IMG/VR virus record: IMGVR_UViG_3300034283_000229 | Span: 1 to 23,042 of that record | Origin: a virus | DNA length: 23,042 nt | Strand: one strand, 5' to 3' | Part shown: in pieces, positions 1,164 through 18,016 of the stretch | Numbering within the stretch: position 1 is the first letter of the stretch | Layout of the letters: each line of letters opens with the position of its first letter | The notes under the pieces: model-generated | The model's input: the letters and a program-made list of their open reading frames with translations, nothing else | What the model was told of the DNA's origin: nothing | Database searches by the model: none | Made by a program: the position numbers and the translations under genes

Positions 1164-3026
1164 ATGGCAGCACTATCAATCAGCGTACCGTACCCAGTCT
1201 TTTCAGGACAGGATGGGTTGCCTTTGGACAATGGTTATGTGTGGATTGGCGCGCCAAACTTGTCGCCACAAGTTAACCCTGTTACTGTTTATTTTGATGA
1301 AGCATTAACAATACAAGCAGCCCAACCATTACGCACCATCAATGGCTACATTTCAAACTCTGGAACACCTGCACAAATTTATGTGAACGGCGTGAACTTT
1401 TCTATTTTGGTTCAAGATAGTAAAGGCTCAATGGTTTATCAATTTGCAGATGGTGCTTATGTTGCAACAAATGCAGTGAGTGTTGCATTTACTGGAGCCA
1501 ATGGTCAAACTGGTACGGTGGCTGACATTGCTGATCCAGATGGTGCTGATTGGATTGGGTTTACAGGGTACAAGGCCCAAGACGGAACAGTTGAAAATTT
1601 AGCTGGCGATGATGGTTCAGACTGGATTGGTTTTGAGCCATCGGCAACAGGCTCCATTGTTCGATCAGCTCAAGACAAGATGCGAGACAATGCCAACATA
1701 AATGATTTTGGTGGCAATGGTGACGGTATTGCTATCAATAATTCAGCGTTTTCTTTGATGGCAACTGCTTATGGCTATGTTGTATTTCCCGAAGGTGATT
1801 TCGTGCTGAATACTCGGAACATTGATGTGCCGATTTATTTCTCAGCAGGTGCGGCAATCACAGTCCCAACTGGCAACACAGTTACTATTCGCAACAGAAT
1901 CACAGCGTCAAACAAGCAACAAATTTTTAAGGGCGATGGCGACATTCGCCTTGAGAGCGACAACGCTCTAGGCATTGGTGAAGACAGCCGCCATGTGTAC
2001 GCTGCTTGGTGGGGTATTTTCCCTGTTGGTCAGGCAGCCACGATTCAAACGGCTTTGTTCAACAAAGCACTTGGCGCATTTACATCGCAGACCCGTGAAG
2101 GCATCTTTGAGCTAGACATTGGTTCTTATCGAATTGACGAAAAAGTAACTATCCCTCGCGGCGTGCATCTCAAAGGTGCTGGCACGCGCAGAACAGTTTT
2201 TGACTTGGTAGATGACGGTTACACCGCACTTGAATCTGGTGGTGCTGCTGTAAAAATTACAGGCGTTCAGTTTGAACAACCGACTGGATCGTTTTCGTAT
2301 TTTGATGGTATCCAGATTGGGTTGTTACACGATACTTGTGTGCTTGAGGACATAAGGCTGTGGAACCCTCGCGTTGGTATTTATATTGGCCTCGATGCAA
2401 CACGATCAAGCGTCAATCAAGTTGTTTGCGTTAACAACTCGGAGCCAGGTGGTGGCTACCCTGCCGACAGTGCTGTTGTGTGGGTACAGGCGACCAATGT
2501 TTTGCTTGAAGACATACAGTTGACAAACACCAGTTTTGGCCAAGATTGTGTCGTGCTTCTTGGCTTGGGAAACACATCTGCAATGCAAAACACCATCATT
2601 AACGATGTGGCTTGCACTGAGAAATCTACGCCAATCAAAATTATTGCGGACACCGAAAGTTTGCAAAACACGATGATTTGCAATGTCGGATTCTTTGGCT
2701 CTACTGGTGATGATATTGACGCAGTGGTGGAAGTCGTGACATCTGGAACGGCTAATGTGCAAGGCTTGTCCATGAACAACATTTGTTCCAACGGGCTTGC
2801 AAGTGCTTTGTTGAAAATGACGCAAGGTAGTTCTGGTTCTACGCTTGCGGTAACACTCGCTAGCGGAACGGCGTTTTCATCCAACACTCAAGCTGCAAAC
2901 TTGACGCGAACTGCTGGAACAATGTCTAAAATTGTTATTGCTCACGGCGTTGCAGCTTTTTCTGCTTCGCCACCTGTTTCAAGCACCGGCACTATTACCG
3001 ATCTTGAAATTGCCAGCTATATGTAA
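1164..3026 (+). CDS. Tailspike 1, P22-type head-binding domain plus beta-helix
   Basis: 620 residues. Residues 1-95 resemble the P22 tailspike head-binding domain (short beta strands, LDNGYVWIG, NPVTVYFDEALT, AQPLRTINGY), which attaches the spike to the tail. Residues about 110-160 form a Gly/Asp-rich linker in which DGADWIGF and DGSDWIGF recur. From about 168 (SAQDKMRDNANINDFGGNGDG) a right-handed parallel beta-helix of the pectate-lyase type begins, the fold used by spikes that bind or cut surface polysaccharide. The start at 1164 has AAGGAGA 9-15 bases upstream. The N-terminus is clearly paralogous to that of the next gene, while the bodies differ. No active-site residues can be assigned by eye. 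The structural role is confident; whether it is enzymatic is unknown. Confidence 0.85.
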   Translation: MAALSISVPYPVFSGQDGLPLDNGYVWIGAPNLSPQVNPVTVYFDEALTIQAAQPLRTINGYISNSGTPAQIYVNGVNFSILVQDSKGSMVYQFADGAYVATNAVSVAFTGANGQTGTVADIADPDGADWIGFTGYKAQDGTVENLAGDDGSDWIGFEPSATGSIVRSAQDKMRDNANINDFGGNGDGIAINNSAFSLMATAYGYVVFPEGDFVLNTRNIDVPIYFSAGAAITVPTGNTVTIRNRITASNKQQIFKGDGDIRLESDNALGIGEDSRHVYAAWWGIFPVGQAATIQTALFNKALGAFTSQTREGIFELDIGSYRIDEKVTIPRGVHLKGAGTRRTVFDLVDDGYTALESGGAAVKITGVQFEQPTGSFSYFDGIQIGLLHDTCVLEDIRLWNPRVGIYIGLDATRSSVNQVVCVNNSEPGGGYPADSAVVWVQATNVLLEDIQLTNTSFGQDCVVLLGLGNTSAMQNTIINDVACTEKSTPIKIIADTESLQNTMICNVGFFGSTGDDIDAVVEVVTSGTANVQGLSMNNICSNGLASALLKMTQGSSGSTLAVTLASGTAFSSNTQAANLTRTAGTMSKIVIAHGVAAFSASPPVSSTGTITDLEIASYM

Positions 3027-3036
3027 AGGGTAAAAA

Positions 3037-5442
3037 ATGTCAGCACTATCTATTCAACCAGTTTTTCCAACGTTTACTGACATTGATGGTCAGCCATTGG
3101 AAAATGGTTACATTTGGATTGGTCAGGCAAACCTTGACCCTCAAGCAAATCCAATAACTGTTTATTTGGATGATGCTTTAACTATCGTTGCAACTCAGCC
3201 TATAAGAACCATCGCTGGTTATCCATCAAATAATAGCGCTCCGTGTCGGCTGTATGTAAACACCAATTACAGCATCCGAGTAATGAACAGGAATGGAAGT
3301 ACGGTATATTCTGCACCAGAAGCAACCGAGCGTTACAGCAATGCGGTTCTAAGCAATGTCGCAATCAACGTGACAGACTTTGGCGCGATTGGTGATGGTG
3401 TAACGAATGACACTACCGCAATTCAAGCAGCATTGAATGCGGGTGCTGGCGGTTCTGTGTACCTGCCAAAGGGTGTTTATCGATGCACTGAAACGCTTGT
3501 AGTCCCACCTGGCACAATCTTTTATGGTGACGGCACAGGCGCATGGCGAGCCGCACCATTTTCCAACATTGAAACAGCAATTTATTCCAATGACATTGGC
3601 TCGGTGCTCTTGTTTACAGGGACTGGAACGCGTAACAAAACTGTTGACTTTGTGACCGAATCGCGTCAGTGCGGTTTTGACCGTCCGAACACTGTTCGCA
3701 ACTACACCAACTCGTTTGACGCTGAGTATTTGTTGGCAGACTTCACCAACAAAAATGCAAGTGGTGCAACTCCCGCAACACTGCGTCAATTTTCAGTTGG
3801 CGTCATTCTTGGCACTGGTGAGAGTGATAGTTGGTATCCAACTGTTCTCCGTCAAATGCGGGTTGTTATTAGCTGCCCAGGCCCATCGGAAACTTACGGC
3901 GTAGAGGGTTATGGCAACCAGTCAACGATTGTGCCTTTTGCCGATTGGGATATTGGCGTATGGGCAAAATCACCTTGGCGCACCCGCGTTGAATATTGTC
4001 AAGTCGTAGGCTATTGGAATATTAAAGGTCTTTTGGCAACTTCAATGGCAATGGATGGCGCTACCACTGAAACAGGTGGTTACGCTGAGTTTTTCCATAT
4101 TGAGGGCGGCGTCATTCAATCAGGCTTATCAATCCGGTCTGGAGACGTCTGGCCGATTACTGCAAAAACTGTAAACACATTGACCATCGAATGGACTGCA
4201 TCACATCGTTTTGCGAGTTCAGGCACTCTTATTACAGACGATGGTTCTGTAACATATACGGGTTTAACTTATACGGCTGGCAGCCCAAACACATTGACAT
4301 TTACAGGATGCTCGGCAACGACAAACATCGTTGTTAGCGGGGACACTCGTACTGTAATTCGCACCACGCCAACGGCAGGTTTTGCCAACAGCAGCATCAA
4401 CAACTGCGAGATCAACGATTTTGCTCATGCAACTCGCGTTGAAGAACAGTCTCCAGATTTTGCTCCACGGCAAATGCCTATTCGGGCTGCAATTGAAATT
4501 AGCGGTCACCCAACTCGCGGCATTTCGTTTAATGATGTGTCTGCCTACGGGACAAGCCCAGTTGCCTTGCACTTTGGCAATGCGCGAGATATTGAGTTTT
4601 ATTCATGTTACTTTGAGCCAAAGTCCTACAAGACAACTGTTGGCGGCGCATCACAAACTCAAGGCGCTGCGTTTGTCTGCGGCCCGAAAGCCACTTACAG
4701 CACACTCGTTCCCACTTACGAAAAAGGCATCATCACCGCATTTGGTGTTGACTTTACTGGTTCAATCGGGATGCTCCCATTGGTTAACACCACGGTAGGC
4801 ACTCGTTTGTATAACGTACCAGACCTTTTTAATCCTCGCGGGTACTTTAATCAAAGGCGCAATTTACCCAATGCCGATCTCAACACAAAGTTGGTTGGCA
4901 GCAATGGGCAAAGCGTTCAAATTATTTCTCAAAGCACAACTGGAAGTGATCGAATCGGGTTTGACGTTGACACTGATGGAAACGTAACGATTGGCCCTGA
5001 GTTTTCTGGCAACGTCACAAAATTTACAGCAGGCACACAAAGGTTTAGCAACATTGGCAACAGGGTTCAGTTTGAGCAAACCGATTTGGCCTTAGATGAA
5101 AAAGTCTGGGAGTTTGCCAACACCTCAAGTGCTGGATCGTTTGTTTTTAGAACCCTTGCCGATGCGTATTCCGTTGGAACAACGGCTTGGTCTTTGTCAA
5201 GGTCCACAACTAACATTACAGGTCAAACATGGACAATCGACTCAGGTGAATACCGATTCGTTGGTGGCTCAATTCGTCTTGGCAGCACAACTGGCCCCAC
5301 ATGGTCACAAGGGACAGGGAGTCCTGAAGGTGTTGTAACTGCACGTGTTGGCTCGTTCTTTTCACGCACAGACGGCGGCGCTGGAACTTCGTTTTACGTC
5401 AAAGAATCTGGCACAGGTAATACTGGCTGGGTTGCAAAGTAA
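3037..5442 (+). CDS. Tailspike 2, P22-type head-binding domain plus pectate-lyase-like beta-helix
   Basis: 801 residues. The first 95 residues match tailspike 1 nearly strand for strand (LENGYIWIGQANLDPQANP, ITVYLDDALTIVATQPIRTI). The next part, VTDFGAIGDGVTNDTTAIQ at about 112-130, is the standard entry of the pectate_lyase_3 superfamily beta-helix. The middle region is rich in Thr, Gly and Asn. The last about 25 residues (GTSFYVKESGTGNTGWVAK) resemble the closing segment common in phage tail fibres. The gene starts 10 bases after tailspike 1 (GTAAAGGGTAAAAAATG supplies AAAGGG as ribosome binding site). It probably recognises a second surface glycan. The family call is strong; the receptor and any enzyme activity are unknown. 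Confidence 0.85.
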   Translation: MSALSIQPVFPTFTDIDGQPLENGYIWIGQANLDPQANPITVYLDDALTIVATQPIRTIAGYPSNNSAPCRLYVNTNYSIRVMNRNGSTVYSAPEATERYSNAVLSNVAINVTDFGAIGDGVTNDTTAIQAALNAGAGGSVYLPKGVYRCTETLVVPPGTIFYGDGTGAWRAAPFSNIETAIYSNDIGSVLLFTGTGTRNKTVDFVTESRQCGFDRPNTVRNYTNSFDAEYLLADFTNKNASGATPATLRQFSVGVILGTGESDSWYPTVLRQMRVVISCPGPSETYGVEGYGNQSTIVPFADWDIGVWAKSPWRTRVEYCQVVGYWNIKGLLATSMAMDGATTETGGYAEFFHIEGGVIQSGLSIRSGDVWPITAKTVNTLTIEWTASHRFASSGTLITDDGSVTYTGLTYTAGSPNTLTFTGCSATTNIVVSGDTRTVIRTTPTAGFANSSINNCEINDFAHATRVEEQSPDFAPRQMPIRAAIEISGHPTRGISFNDVSAYGTSPVALHFGNARDIEFYSCYFEPKSYKTTVGGASQTQGAAFVCGPKATYSTLVPTYEKGIITAFGVDFTGSIGMLPLVNTTVGTRLYNVPDLFNPRGYFNQRRNLPNADLNTKLVGSNGQSVQIISQSTTGSDRIGFDVDTDGNVTIGPEFSGNVTKFTAGTQRFSNIGNRVQFEQTDLALDEKVWEFANTSSAGSFVFRTLADAYSVGTTAWSLSRSTTNITGQTWTIDSGEYRFVGGSIRLGSTTGPTWSQGTGSPEGVVTARVGSFFSRTDGGAGTSFYVKESGTGNTGWVAK

Positions 5443-14478: not shown

Positions 14479-15258
14479 ATGCACTACTACACGCACCACA
14501 TTGGTGACTTCCTAAAAGACACAGGACACCTTAGCAACGACCAAATGGGCGTTTATCTGAGGATGCTCTGGCGATATTACCTTGACGAAAAGCCACTACA
14601 AGACGATTGCGAAAGCATTGCGTTTGCTATGCGTTCGGATGAAAAAACCGTGCGCTTGATACTGCGCCATTTCTTTGTTTTGCATGAAGATGGATGGCGG
14701 CACAACAGGTGTGACAAGGAAATTGCCAGATACCATGAAAAGAGTGGGAAGGCATCAGAAAGTGCAAACGCACGATGGAAGAATGCGAAGGCAATGCGAA
14801 CGCATACCGAACGCATTGCGGATGCACCTGTTTTTGATGCTAACCAAGAACCAATAACCAATAACCAAGTAAATACATATATATGTCCGCCTGACGGCGA
14901 ACTTGAGGCGATGACGGCTTCAAAAATACCAGCCTGTCAACATCAAGGGGTCATTGAGTTGTACCACCAGCACTTGCCAACTTTACGCAGGGTTGAGGTC
15001 TGGAATGCAACGAGGCAGGGTTATTTGCGGCAACGATGGCGGGAAGTGGCTGAAGAACTGGCGCAGGAAAAGCCCATCGAGATTGCAAATGTCTTGAACT
15101 GGTGGGGTGATTTTTTCCAGCACATTGGCAAAAGTAAATTCCTAACTGGCAAAGTCAACAGCAAGGATGGTCGGGCATTCACTGCCGACCTTGAGTGGAT
15201 TTTGAAACCAACCAATTTTGCAAAAATCGTAGAGGGAAAATATCATGGCAATAACTAA
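14479..15258 (+). CDS. DUF1376 (YdaU-like) replication protein
   Basis: 259 residues; GAGG lies eight bases before the ATG. Residues 1-90 are the DUF1376 domain: MHYYTHHIGDFLKDTGHLSN, then GVYLRMLWRYYLDEKPL and the HEDGWRHNRCDKEIARY segment. This domain has a winged-helix look and is found in phage replication regions, where such proteins take the place of an O-type initiator. A variable linker with NQEPITNNQV (about 121-131) carries an iteron-like DNA array. The C-terminal half (LRQRWREVAEEL, LNWWGDFFQHIGKSKFL, LEWILKPTNFAKIVEGKY) is typical of the family's second domain. It probably initiates phage replication at the repeats in its own gene. Confidence 0.8.
   Translation: MHYYTHHIGDFLKDTGHLSNDQMGVYLRMLWRYYLDEKPLQDDCESIAFAMRSDEKTVRLILRHFFVLHEDGWRHNRCDKEIARYHEKSGKASESANARWKNAKAMRTHTERIADAPVFDANQEPITNNQVNTYICPPDGELEAMTASKIPACQHQGVIELYHQHLPTLRRVEVWNATRQGYLRQRWREVAEELAQEKPIEIANVLNWWGDFFQHIGKSKFLTGKVNSKDGRAFTADLEWILKPTNFAKIVEGKYHGNN
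14842..14886. other. Candidate replication origin: four 7-bp iterons plus AT-rich palindrome
   Basis: Within the DUF1376 gene there are four head-to-tail 7-bp units: AACCAAG, AACCAAT, AACCAAT, AACCAAG (14842-14869). They are followed at once by TAAATACATATATATGT, which contains the perfect 12-bp palindrome ACATATATATGT (14875-14886). Tandem iterons beside an AT-rich block inside the initiator gene is the plan of the lambda origin in gene O. The call is by analogy. Confidence 0.5.
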
Positions 15259-15631
15259 TTTCAGAAAAGACGAGCCGCAGGACAATCTTGACCACCTTAT
15301 GTGTCAAGCGCATCGTTGCCCAAACCGCTGGTCAGTTGACCGTGGAAGCCGCCTGTGTTCAGCCCATGCATGGGAAGAGCCACATAAATGGCCGCAGATT
15401 ACAGAAAGCCTTTTCTACAAAACCAACTCAAAACAAACTGACAACCTACCGCCAATTAAATTTACTGAAGCAGAAAAAAGGGAAGTAATACAGAATTTGC
15501 GTCAACTTTCATCAACCAACCAAGACCAAAAGCAATGGGCAAAAGTTTTGCGGCAAAAAGAACAGGCTGGGGAAAACCTTAGCAAAATCCAGCGTGAGGC
15601 ATGGCGCACGGCTTTGAGGCATCATGAATGA
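15245..15631 (+). CDS. Zinc-binding hypothetical protein of the replication region
   Basis: 128 residues; the ATG lies 14 bases inside the DUF1376 gene. The N-terminal third has a Cys/His set, MCQAHRCPNRWSVD then LCSAHAWE, consistent with one zinc site. The rest is a charged helical segment (FTEAEKREVIQNLRQLSS, KVLRQKEQAGENLSKIQREA). Proteins with this zinc start often follow DUF1376 genes in phages in my experience; role unknown, perhaps a helicase loader or replication accessory. It overlaps the methyltransferase start by eight bases. Confidence 0.65.
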   Translation: MAITNFRKDEPQDNLDHLMCQAHRCPNRWSVDRGSRLCSAHAWEEPHKWPQITESLFYKTNSKQTDNLPPIKFTEAEKREVIQNLRQLSSTNQDQKQWAKVLRQKEQAGENLSKIQREAWRTALRHHE

Positions 15632-16388
15632 GCTGGCTCTTTTCGCAGGCGCTGGTGGAGGAATACTTGGGGGAAAACTTCTCGGATGGCAAACAGTCTG
15701 CGCCGTTGAATGGGAAGCCTACCCAGCAAGCGTATTGTGCGCCCGACAAAATGACGGACTTCTCCCGACTTTCCCAATTTGGGATGATGTACAAACCTTT
15801 GACGGCAAACCTTGGCGAGGAATTGTTGACGTTGTATCTGGAGGATTTCCTTGCCAAGACATCAGCGCAGCAGGAAAAGGCGCAGGAATTGACGGAGAAC
15901 GAAGCGGAATGTGGACAGAAATGGCTCGCATCATTTGTGAAGTACGACCCAGATACGTCTTTGTGGAGAACTCACCAATGCTCACTTCTAGGGGACTTGG
16001 AAGAGTTCTTGGAGACTTGGCCGCAATGGGGTTTGATGCGAAATGGGGAGTGTTGGGAGCAGCGGACATTGGAGCAAACCATCAGAGGGACAGAATCTGG
16101 ATTGTCGGAAAGCTGGCCCACCCCAAGAAGTTGCTCGGCAATGGCGGCAACGATAACGCCAGAGTCAGCATGGAACGACAAACGCAATCCAAACTTAGAA
16201 ACGATTGTGGGTCAGAGACTTTGGCCGACCACGACAGCGCACATGGCGAAGGAAACCAATGCACCAAGCGAACACACACGGAACACCCCAACCCTGACAG
16301 CACAAGTGAATTGGCTTACGCCCAGGACGAAGGGTATGTGCGGTGGCTCGGGAGCATGGGCGCAACTGAAGGCCAACACAACCATTGA
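15624..16388 (+). CDS. C5 cytosine DNA methyltransferase, cut short by a stop
   Basis: The 254 residues before the TGA hold the catalytic half of a C5 methyltransferase: motif I LFAGAGGG (6-13), motif IV GGFPCQDIS with nucleophile Cys77, motif VI ENS at 115-117 and motif VIII QRDR at 154-157. It would methylate cytosine with S-adenosylmethionine, protecting phage DNA from restriction. Then follows a low-complexity polar region. TGA at 16386-16388 stops the frame before motifs IX-X, which continue in the same frame to 16550. Without motif X the product is probably inactive or needs read-through. GAGG at 15616-15619 is four bases from this ATG. Confidence 0.8.
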   Translation: MNELALFAGAGGGILGGKLLGWQTVCAVEWEAYPASVLCARQNDGLLPTFPIWDDVQTFDGKPWRGIVDVVSGGFPCQDISAAGKGAGIDGERSGMWTEMARIICEVRPRYVFVENSPMLTSRGLGRVLGDLAAMGFDAKWGVLGAADIGANHQRDRIWIVGKLAHPKKLLGNGGNDNARVSMERQTQSKLRNDCGSETLADHDSAHGEGNQCTKRTHTEHPNPDSTSELAYAQDEGYVRWLGSMGATEGQHNH

Positions 16389-16539
16389 GGAAGCAAGGTC
16401 AATGGGCGCGGGGAATGGTGGCAAGTTGAACCCAACGTGGGTCGAGTGGCTGATGGGGTGGCCGCTAGGGTGGACAGACTTAAAGCCATTGGAAATGGAC
16501 AAGTTCCATTGTGTGCAGCAACAGCTTGGAGAATCTTAA
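15628..16539 (+). CDS. 303-residue ORF overlapping the methyltransferase in the +1 frame
   Basis: The frame is open for 303 codons across the entire methyltransferase locus, including past the TGA that breaks the other frame. Its ATG lies four bases after the methyltransferase ATG, and the shared GAGG is eight bases away, a better spacing than for the other start. The protein starts MSWLFSQALVEEYLGENFSD, has WPTP-like repeats in the middle and ends GGKLNPTWVEWLMGWPLGW with TDLKPLEMDKF. I recall phage proteins with this opening and this ending, usually unexplained. Whether it is translated or is a by-product of a conserved methyltransferase is undecided. No catalytic motif is seen. Confidence 0.5.
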   Translation: MSWLFSQALVEEYLGENFSDGKQSAPLNGKPTQQAYCAPDKMTDFSRLSQFGMMYKPLTANLGEELLTLYLEDFLAKTSAQQEKAQELTENEAECGQKWLASFVKYDPDTSLWRTHQCSLLGDLEEFLETWPQWGLMRNGECWEQRTLEQTIRGTESGLSESWPTPRSCSAMAATITPESAWNDKRNPNLETIVGQRLWPTTTAHMAKETNAPSEHTRNTPTLTAQVNWLTPRTKGMCGGSGAWAQLKANTTIEEARSMGAGNGGKLNPTWVEWLMGWPLGWTDLKPLEMDKFHCVQQQLGES

Positions 16540-16550
16540 GTGATATATGA
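16389..16550 (+). pseudogene. Displaced C-terminal segment (motifs IX-X) of the methyltransferase
   Basis: Directly after the TGA, the same frame reads EWWQVEPNVGRVADGVAAR, then VDRLKAIGNGQVPLCAATAW and RILSDI, ending in TGA at 16548-16550. AIGNGQVP with its flanks is the classical motif X of C5 methyltransferases, and NVGRVADGVAAR belongs to motif IX. No start codon in this piece could express it alone. The natural stop overlaps the next gene's ATG (ATGA), showing the ancestral gene ended here at 308 codons. Confidence 0.75.
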
Positions 16551-16822: not shown

Positions 16823-17225
16823 TGTGCCGCTTGAACCCAAGGGCAAAGGCAGACCGAGGTTTTCCCGACACGGGAAGTTCACCAAGGTTTACACCGACCA
16901 AGCAACTCTTGATTACGAAACCGCAATCCAACTGTGCGCCAGCAAAGCAATGGGGATAAGCAAGCCCCTAGAAACGCCTGTGAGCGTTTATTTGTACATC
17001 AGGACACCAATCCCACAGTCGTACTCAAAAAAGCGCACAGAGGCTTGTTTAAGCGGTTCTGAGCGCCCAGCAAAGAAGCCTGACATTGACAATGTGGCAA
17101 AGGCATTTTTGGATGCAATGAACGGCACGGTTTATCTTGATGACACCCAAGTGGTCGAGCTGAACATCAAAAAGGTCTATTCAGCAGTGGCTGGGGTGGA
17201 TGTAGCAATCATGGAGGCTGCATGA
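16803..17225 (+). CDS. rusA: RusA-family Holliday junction resolvase
   Basis: 140 residues from GTG at 16803, which has GGAGAG five bases upstream; an upstream TTG at 16782 is less likely. The core is KPDIDNVAKAFLDAMNG with Asp94 and Asp96, then YLDDTQV with Asp113/114, the acidic residues by which RusA binds metal. KGKGRPRFS near the N-terminus is also typical. It cuts four-way junctions made during recombination and replication, and in phages clears branched DNA before packaging. Its TGA overlaps the next ATG. Confidence 0.9.
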   Translation: MISIVFDVPLEPKGKGRPRFSRHGKFTKVYTDQATLDYETAIQLCASKAMGISKPLETPVSVYLYIRTPIPQSYSKKRTEACLSGSERPAKKPDIDNVAKAFLDAMNGTVYLDDTQVVELNIKKVYSAVAGVDVAIMEAA

Positions 17226-18016
17226 ACCCTTACAAAATAACTGAACCAACTTGCATTAGCTTTAGCGGTGGGCGCACAAGTGCATATATGTTGTATAAAG
17301 TATTAGAAGCTGGGGGGGGGCAACTGCCAAGCGAGGCTGTTGTTTGCTTTGCCAATACTGGCAAGGAAGATGAGGCCACATTGAAGTTTGTACAAGCCTG
17401 CTCTAACAATTGGAATGTCCCTATCGTTTGGCTTGAGTTTGCTAAAAACCCGCAGAAATTTGTTGAAGTTGACTTTAAAGCAGCGTCCAGAGATGGTGAA
17501 CCCTTTGCCGAGATGATTCGACAAAAGCAGTTTTTGCCAAACTCAGTTATGCGATTCTGTACAACAGAACTCAAGATTCACCCGATAACTCGCCTCATGA
17601 AGTCAAAAGGGTTTGATGAATTTCAGACTTTTGCAGGGATTCGGGCTGATGAACCAAGGCGAGTCAGTAAATTGCGGCAAACAGTCCATGCACCCTTGGC
17701 CTTGGCTGGTGTCACCCAAACCCATGTCCAGCAGTTTTGGAAAGAAAACGATTTCGATCTTGGTCTTCAGTTTGTGGACAAGATAACACCGCTTGGAAAC
17801 TGTGATTTGTGCTTTATGAAGGGCGCACATCAACTAATGTCCATCATTCAGCATGAGCCTAATCGGGCTATTTGGTGGGCAAAGCAAGAGGAAATCATTG
17901 GCGGCAGATTTTCAAAAGACCGCCCGACCTATGCTTCAATGAGCCAATTTGGAAAAGACCAAATAGATTTGTTTGACGCAACAGAGGAAACAATAGCTTG
18001 TTTTTGTGGAGATTAA
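17222..18016 (+). CDS. PP-loop ATPase, PAPS reductase-like
   Basis: 264 residues. SGGRTSAYML at 15-24 is the PP-loop that binds ATP and activates a substrate by adenylation; CFANTGKEDEATLKFV, RFCTTELKIHP and GNCDLCFMKG are further family marks, the last two carrying Cys for sulfur chemistry or an iron-sulfur site. Phage proteins of this kind are labelled PAPS reductases, but without the rest of sulfate assimilation they more likely modify nucleic acid or a nucleotide. A run of nine G at 17312-17320 encodes Gly31-33. Start is fixed by ATGA overlap with RusA. Confidence 0.8.
   Translation: MNPYKITEPTCISFSGGRTSAYMLYKVLEAGGGQLPSEAVVCFANTGKEDEATLKFVQACSNNWNVPIVWLEFAKNPQKFVEVDFKAASRDGEPFAEMIRQKQFLPNSVMRFCTTELKIHPITRLMKSKGFDEFQTFAGIRADEPRRVSKLRQTVHAPLALAGVTQTHVQQFWKENDFDLGLQFVDKITPLGNCDLCFMKGAHQLMSIIQHEPNRAIWWAKQEEIIGGRFSKDRPTYASMSQFGKDQIDLFDATEETIACFCGD

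Follow-up and report, generated by a model that had tools for sequence, protein, structure and literature searches.

Can one stretch of phage DNA encode two proteins in two frames of the same strand, and if so, what would the second protein do beside the first? A cytosine methyltransferase gene raised this question in a window of 23,042 bases, by which we mean the whole stretch of DNA analyzed, positions 1 to 23,042 of IMG/VR virus record IMGVR_UViG_3300034283_000229. A first-pass annotation had noticed a second open frame lying over the methyltransferase and had suggested a long same-strand overlapping gene. We compared both frames of this locus across viral and cellular relatives, and examined how selection is distributed between them.

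Layout of the methyltransferase locus

The zero frame, here called alpha, runs from an ATG at 15624 to a TGA at 16386-16388, upstream of motif X, and its PF00145 match assigns it to the C5 cytosine DNA methyltransferases, with a large domain that holds the catalytic Cys (Table 1). Past the TGA the zero frame reopens and continues to a stop at 16548-16550; this tail, with motif X, is joined in frame to the catalytic chain in most relatives, unlike in the window. The +1 frame, here called beta, spans 303 codons from an ATG at 15628 to a stop at 16537-16539 and ends 11 bases before 16550. Re-reading of the window confirmed the coordinates first given for both frames. The first-pass annotation had assigned both motif IX and motif X to the zero frame past the stop. 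For motif X (GNGQVP) this holds, but what occupies the motif IX position is an element of the +1 frame.

Elsewhere in the window, a PAPS-reductase-like gene lies a short way downstream of the methyltransferase at 17222-18016 (PF01507, 7.1e-5; phrog_424, 6.4e-49). Two tandem tail-fibre or spike-like genes at 1164-3026 and 3037-5442 have similar N-termini, and the second of the pair has a pectate-lyase-like domain (PF12708, 2.5e-15).

Table 1. Features of the overlapping methyltransferase locus, in window coordinates
Feature	Position	Strand	Evidence
Upstream ORF, 128 aa, without family match	15245..15631	+	TGA stop overlaps beta ATG as ATGA
Shine-Dalgarno-like GAGG	15616..15619	+	8 nt to beta ATG, 4 nt to alpha ATG
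Alpha, 254 aa, catalytic frame of the C5-methyltransferase with motifs I-VIII	15624..16388	+	PF00145 1.1e-32; phrog_363 1.4e-59
Motif IV Pro-Cys, catalytic Cys77 of alpha	15849..15854	+	P76-C77 invariant in 57 alpha relatives
Beta, 303 aa, overlapping gene in the +1 frame, putative small-domain (specificity) subunit	15628..16539	+	phrog_1008 match in 117/117 aligned betas; kept start; synonymous suppression; frame-specific constraint
Beta target-recognition region (proposed), WPTP-type modules	16105..16419	+	62-69% of substitutions on beta third positions; amino-acid difference beta 12-18% vs alpha frame 43-52%
Beta element at motif IX position, GKLNPTWVEWLMGWPLGWTDLKPL	16420..16491	+	W274, M276 and G277 invariant in 117/117 betas
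Orphan zero-frame tail with motif X (GNGQVP 16491-16508), severed by TGA	16389..16550	+	phrog_32758 1.3e-18; phrog_363

Openness and start signals of the +1 frame

IMG/VR was scanned twice, with the zero-frame protein and with the +1-frame protein as queries, and each scan yielded at least about 600 relatives; the set used here comprises 106 distinct loci with both ends, among the IMG/VR matches listed. Both frames are open over about 245-350 codons in nearly all 106 relatives among the matches listed. Within the same 106 among the matches listed, L007 and L030 have an interrupted alpha and L029 an interrupted beta; stops thus break the +1 frame in a single relative rather than in most. In the window, the +1 frame was fully open in 0.08% of 5000 zero-frame synonymous-codon shuffles, with a median longest run of 118 codons. 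Across 104 distinct sequences, a set restricted to those with both frames open (3 of 107 excluded), no +1-frame stop was observed, while 549 were expected from zero-frame synonymous-codon shuffling. A less biased figure comes from the loci retrieved by the zero-frame query, 76 of 77 of which, among the matches listed, keep a +1 ORF 230 codons long or longer.

The start of beta is also kept. Among the matches listed, 106 of the 107 sequences have its ATG. The first codon of alpha in the 107 sequences varies among ATG, GTG, TTG, CTT, TTA, TTT, CTA and CTC, and in 25 of them is none of ATG, GTG or TTG. A Shine-Dalgarno-like motif occurs in 61 of the 107, most often 7-8 nt from the beta ATG (42 of 61), also in loci whose zero-frame start sits upstream. 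The MSWL...ALVEEY opening is shared by the relatives, as the first-pass annotation had said of phage proteins. From this start-site evidence, beta appears to be translated independently. As far as sequence can tell, the +1 frame is a real gene in same-strand overlap. The original proposal of a long overlapping gene holds, as does its use of a separate start and ribosome-binding site; the ATG is kept and the Shine-Dalgarno spacing fits beta.

Selection on the two frames

The control for synonymous variation was a different gene, the terminase large subunit from the same group of phages. With amino-acid divergence at 9-12%, the difference at 4-fold sites was 0.27 in the zero frame and 0.58 in this control. 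Column heterozygosity at 4-fold sites was likewise lower in the methyltransferase frame (0.296) than in the terminase (0.512), and near-invariant 4-fold columns made up 11 of 56 (20%) in the zero frame versus 1% in the terminase. These near-invariant columns encode +1 residues such as W113, Q117 and G135.

The codon-position test used frame-neutral, ungapped DNA alignments, taken by gene part, with the viral and bacterial-genome sets kept separate. Over motifs I-VIII in the viral set, 58% of changes fell on alpha third positions, and the amino-acid difference was 10.9% in alpha versus 30.8% in beta. Over the recognition region the pattern was reversed: in the viral set 65% of changes fell on beta third positions (amino-acid difference 15.6% in beta versus 47.3% in the alpha frame), and in bacterial genomes 62% (18.0% versus 52.4%), with all recognition-region alignments sharing one beta frame (596/596 viral and 123/123 genomic). 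In the last part, which holds motifs IX and X, both frames are constrained, with amino-acid differences of 17.7% in the +1 frame and 12.9% in the zero frame. A protein-guided codon-position version with 392 pairs agreed with the frame-neutral test. Purifying selection acts on both frames, and constraint passes from the zero frame to the +1 frame between the large-domain and recognition regions. Constraint on the +1 frame beyond that imposed by the methyltransferase is thus present, both as synonymous suppression relative to the terminase and as conservation of the recognition region in that frame.

According to passages in PMC3404938 and PMC5944983, motifs I-VIII and X of C5-methyltransferases lie in the large domain, and the recognition region lies in the small domain together with motif IX. 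The reversal of constraint falls at the border between these two domains.

Predicted structure of alpha

In the predicted alpha structure of an intact relative (L001), residues 1-168 have pLDDT values mostly of 84-98 and correspond to the large domain. Residues 171-254 are mostly below 50, without secondary structure except for the start of the last helix, and the motif X helix exceeds 90. The best Foldseek matches of this model are M.HaeIII and M.HhaI, over about 167 columns. No conserved residues were found in the recognition region of alpha in 57 relatives. The model shows a predicted alpha that lacks the small domain, its recognition region reduced to an unstructured linker.

Proposed recognition modules and the motif IX-like element of beta

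Among beta relatives the WPTP-type modules vary in number, and the LNPxWVEWLMGWP element is nearly invariant. In two relatives, L361 and L359, the corresponding stretch of the beta profile falls in a single ORF between motifs VIII and X; the 451-aa ORF of L361 (Actinomycetota) holds motifs I-VIII, PTP modules, a WVEWLMG-like element and motif X, all in one frame. We call the beta element motif IX mainly because L361 has it in one ORF between motifs VIII and X, so the label is a putative one, given by position in single-ORF relatives. The single ORF of L361 may reflect a natural fusion, or else a frameshift introduced in assembly. PTP-type modules are present in both frames of L361 (421-1773 and 866-1189), the first in the +1 ORF and the others fused in frame with the catalytic domain.

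All 117 aligned betas match phrog_1008, named 'DNA methyltransferase', and phrog_26627, of unknown function, and 113 of the 117 match phrog_27243, also of unknown function. Pfam and NCBIfam models gave no meaningful match to beta members, and a PDB profile search with beta returned nothing below E 0.067. An AlphaFold2 model built from 117 sequences was poor (pLDDT 58, pTM 0.29), and Foldseek found no structural match for it in the PDB; therefore, we claim no fold for beta. Its assignment to the small domain is proposed from position, constraint and the single-ORF relatives, not from fold.

A proposed division of the methyltransferase between two frames

We read beta as a methyltransferase subunit because the +1 frame carries the constrained recognition region and WVEWLMGWP at the expected place of motif IX. 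Its product had first been suggested to be perhaps an accessory or antagonist of the methyltransferase; given where these two elements lie, beta is probably the second half of the same enzyme, and very probably the half that chooses the DNA sequence to be methylated. We consider it highly likely that the locus encodes a C5 cytosine DNA methyltransferase split into its two structural domains, made as separate polypeptides from overlapping frames of one mRNA. Alpha would supply the cofactor-binding catalytic large domain with motifs I-VIII, an unstructured linker in place of the recognition domain, and motif X. Beta, from its own ATG and Shine-Dalgarno sequence, would supply the small domain, with one to several WPTP-type modules followed by the motif IX-like element; together the two chains would form an enzyme for marking phage DNA. 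Translation, alpha-beta assembly, specificity through beta and a part in the evasion of host restriction are inferred. In the distant relatives L211, L221, L224, L229 and L234, motif X is in the beta frame and alpha ends soon past motif VIII, at 168-185 aa.

A +1-constrained recognition region between zero-frame motifs VIII and X could also arise by programmed frameshifting, in which ribosomes would shift out of the zero frame into +1 once past motif VIII, and return ahead of motif X, to make one full-length methyltransferase and no separate beta; that a single-frame version exists in L361 fits such a scheme. It requires two shifts, however, and leaves unexplained both the near-invariant beta ATG with its Shine-Dalgarno spacing and the constraint on beta over motifs I-VIII. 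We also looked for a conserved slippage-promoting sequence just past motif VIII and saw none, and we regard frameshifting as very improbable. Independent translation of beta, to which the start sites point, would suit a protein with an accessory or antagonistic role whose gene simply happens to overlap the methyltransferase, and the N-terminal half of beta (residues 1-155), which overlaps the catalytic motifs, has no assigned role. Yet the zero frame would then be left without a constrained recognition region (alpha-frame difference 47%), the alpha model has no small domain, and motif X shifts into beta in some relatives, so that an independent protein seems quite improbable.

The open +1 frame could instead be a by-product of base composition and of conservation of the methyltransferase frame, and the region of motifs I-VIII, where conservation is stronger in the zero frame and the +1 residues are more variable, speaks for this. 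Against it stand the missing stops (0 versus 549 in the 104 sequences, a set chosen as open), the +1 ORF kept in 76 of the 77 loci from the zero-frame query (among the matches listed) and the halving of synonymous divergence against the terminase. The +1-frame constraint in the recognition region of both the viral and the genomic sets refutes it as a full explanation, and we regard it as extremely improbable. A different matter is whether the window copy is decaying, its enzyme inactivated by the alpha stop and its beta a leftover. The TGA at 16386-16388 removes motif X from alpha, which may leave this contig with an inactive enzyme, and the three interrupted relatives noted above (alpha in L007 and L030, beta in L029, of 106 among the matches listed) show that interruptions occur elsewhere too. 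Against decay, beta and the zero-frame tail are otherwise intact, and the TGA may be a sequencing error in a metagenome contig; we hold decay to be a serious possibility that falls somewhat short of an even chance. It concerns the window copy only and is compatible with a split enzyme in the family as a whole.

Distribution and unusual relatives

The same +1 relation is found in genomes of Pseudomonadota, Desulfobacterota, Verrucomicrobiota, Planctomycetota and others, as well as in archaeal metagenome bins, in a cross-phylum genome set selected by beta similarity. In 398 Pseudomonadota genomes sampled evenly across the phylum, 25 had a beta match, and in those examined of the 25 the alpha profile lay in the other frame of the same DNA. 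Tentatively, and with rather less than even confidence, we suggest that frame-splitting into catalytic and specificity subunits is old and widespread in phages, bacteria and archaea, that one frame gains and loses recognition modules and the other merely stays open as an unstructured linker, and that the conserved N-terminal half of beta, dual-coded with motifs I-VIII, forms a further folded domain, for example an alpha-beta interface.

L124, L141 and L143 were considered as simple nonsense cases of a broken alpha and rejected, since motif X sits in the beta frame, with an insertion. This insertion (L124:2867-3214, L141:2795-3145 and likewise in L143) lies between motifs IX and X and has an HNH-like ORF in the third frame, with a PF01844 match below the cut-off in L141 (E 0.0017) and no HNH match in L124. 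The beta frame is open across it in L124 and L141, with motif X then in the beta frame. It may represent a mobile HNH endonuclease lodged inside a gene with two frames already in use. In L328 (Embleya plasmid NZ_CP108778.1) the split methyltransferase is followed directly downstream by a second cytosine methyltransferase ORF, and another frame nearby has a beta-like W.T...TWP...G.MR.G element.

If the split reading is true, many genes called 'DNA cytosine methyltransferase' encode half an enzyme only, and the half that sets specificity, for which no Pfam or NCBIfam model was found, is labelled hypothetical or left uncalled. This would bear on methylome prediction, on studies of phage anti-restriction and on overlapping-gene biology. 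A single overlapping pair in which selection moves between frames along the gene also offers a direct test bed for dual-coding methods.

Comparison with known split methyltransferases

The small polypeptide of M.EcoHK31I, 176 aa long, is read from a different frame within the coding sequence of the large one, and M.EaeI is also a two-polypeptide C5-methyltransferase. The phage beta differs from the shorter M.EcoHK31I beta in being as long as alpha, and it starts four bases after alpha. Compared by description rather than by sequence, M.EcoHK31I would be the closest precedent for the phage locus, with M.AquI also near; the literature on overlapping C5-methyltransferases in general yielded only passing mentions of these two. 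No EcoHK31I-like copy was found in E. coli genomes with L331 as the query.

The PHROG families that match beta (phrog_1008, phrog_26627 and phrog_27243) record neither its overlap with the catalytic frame nor a recognition-domain role. In Paenibacillus phage Redbud, beta has a match at REDBUD_51 (27% identity for that phage group), described as a 'g50 internal gene' inside a DNA-cytosine methyltransferase and listed as hypothetical, without a proposed role.

M.AquI is split within the variable region, with motifs I-VIII on one chain, according to a passage in PMC3404938. The distant relatives L211, L221, L224 and L229 resemble it in having motifs IX and X on the second chain. The window, where the motif X DNA is in the zero frame, and most relatives differ in keeping motif X in the first frame, and their genes overlap over the whole length.

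In M.EcoHK31I, motifs I-VIII and X are on the large polypeptide and motif IX is on the smaller second one (passages in PMC3404938, citing Lee, Kam and Shaw 1995), and the recognition domain is predicted in the large polypeptide (PMC3404938, same passages). The phage family would be alike, with motifs I-VIII on the first frame, the motif IX-like element, so named by position, on the second, and motif X in the alpha frame in relatives. It differs in being a phage gene without a restriction enzyme identified alongside and, in the window, in an alpha without motif X. Contrary to the M.EcoHK31I prediction, the alpha-frame recognition region is unconstrained in the codon test and unstructured in the model, and the constrained recognition region is in the frame of the small domain.
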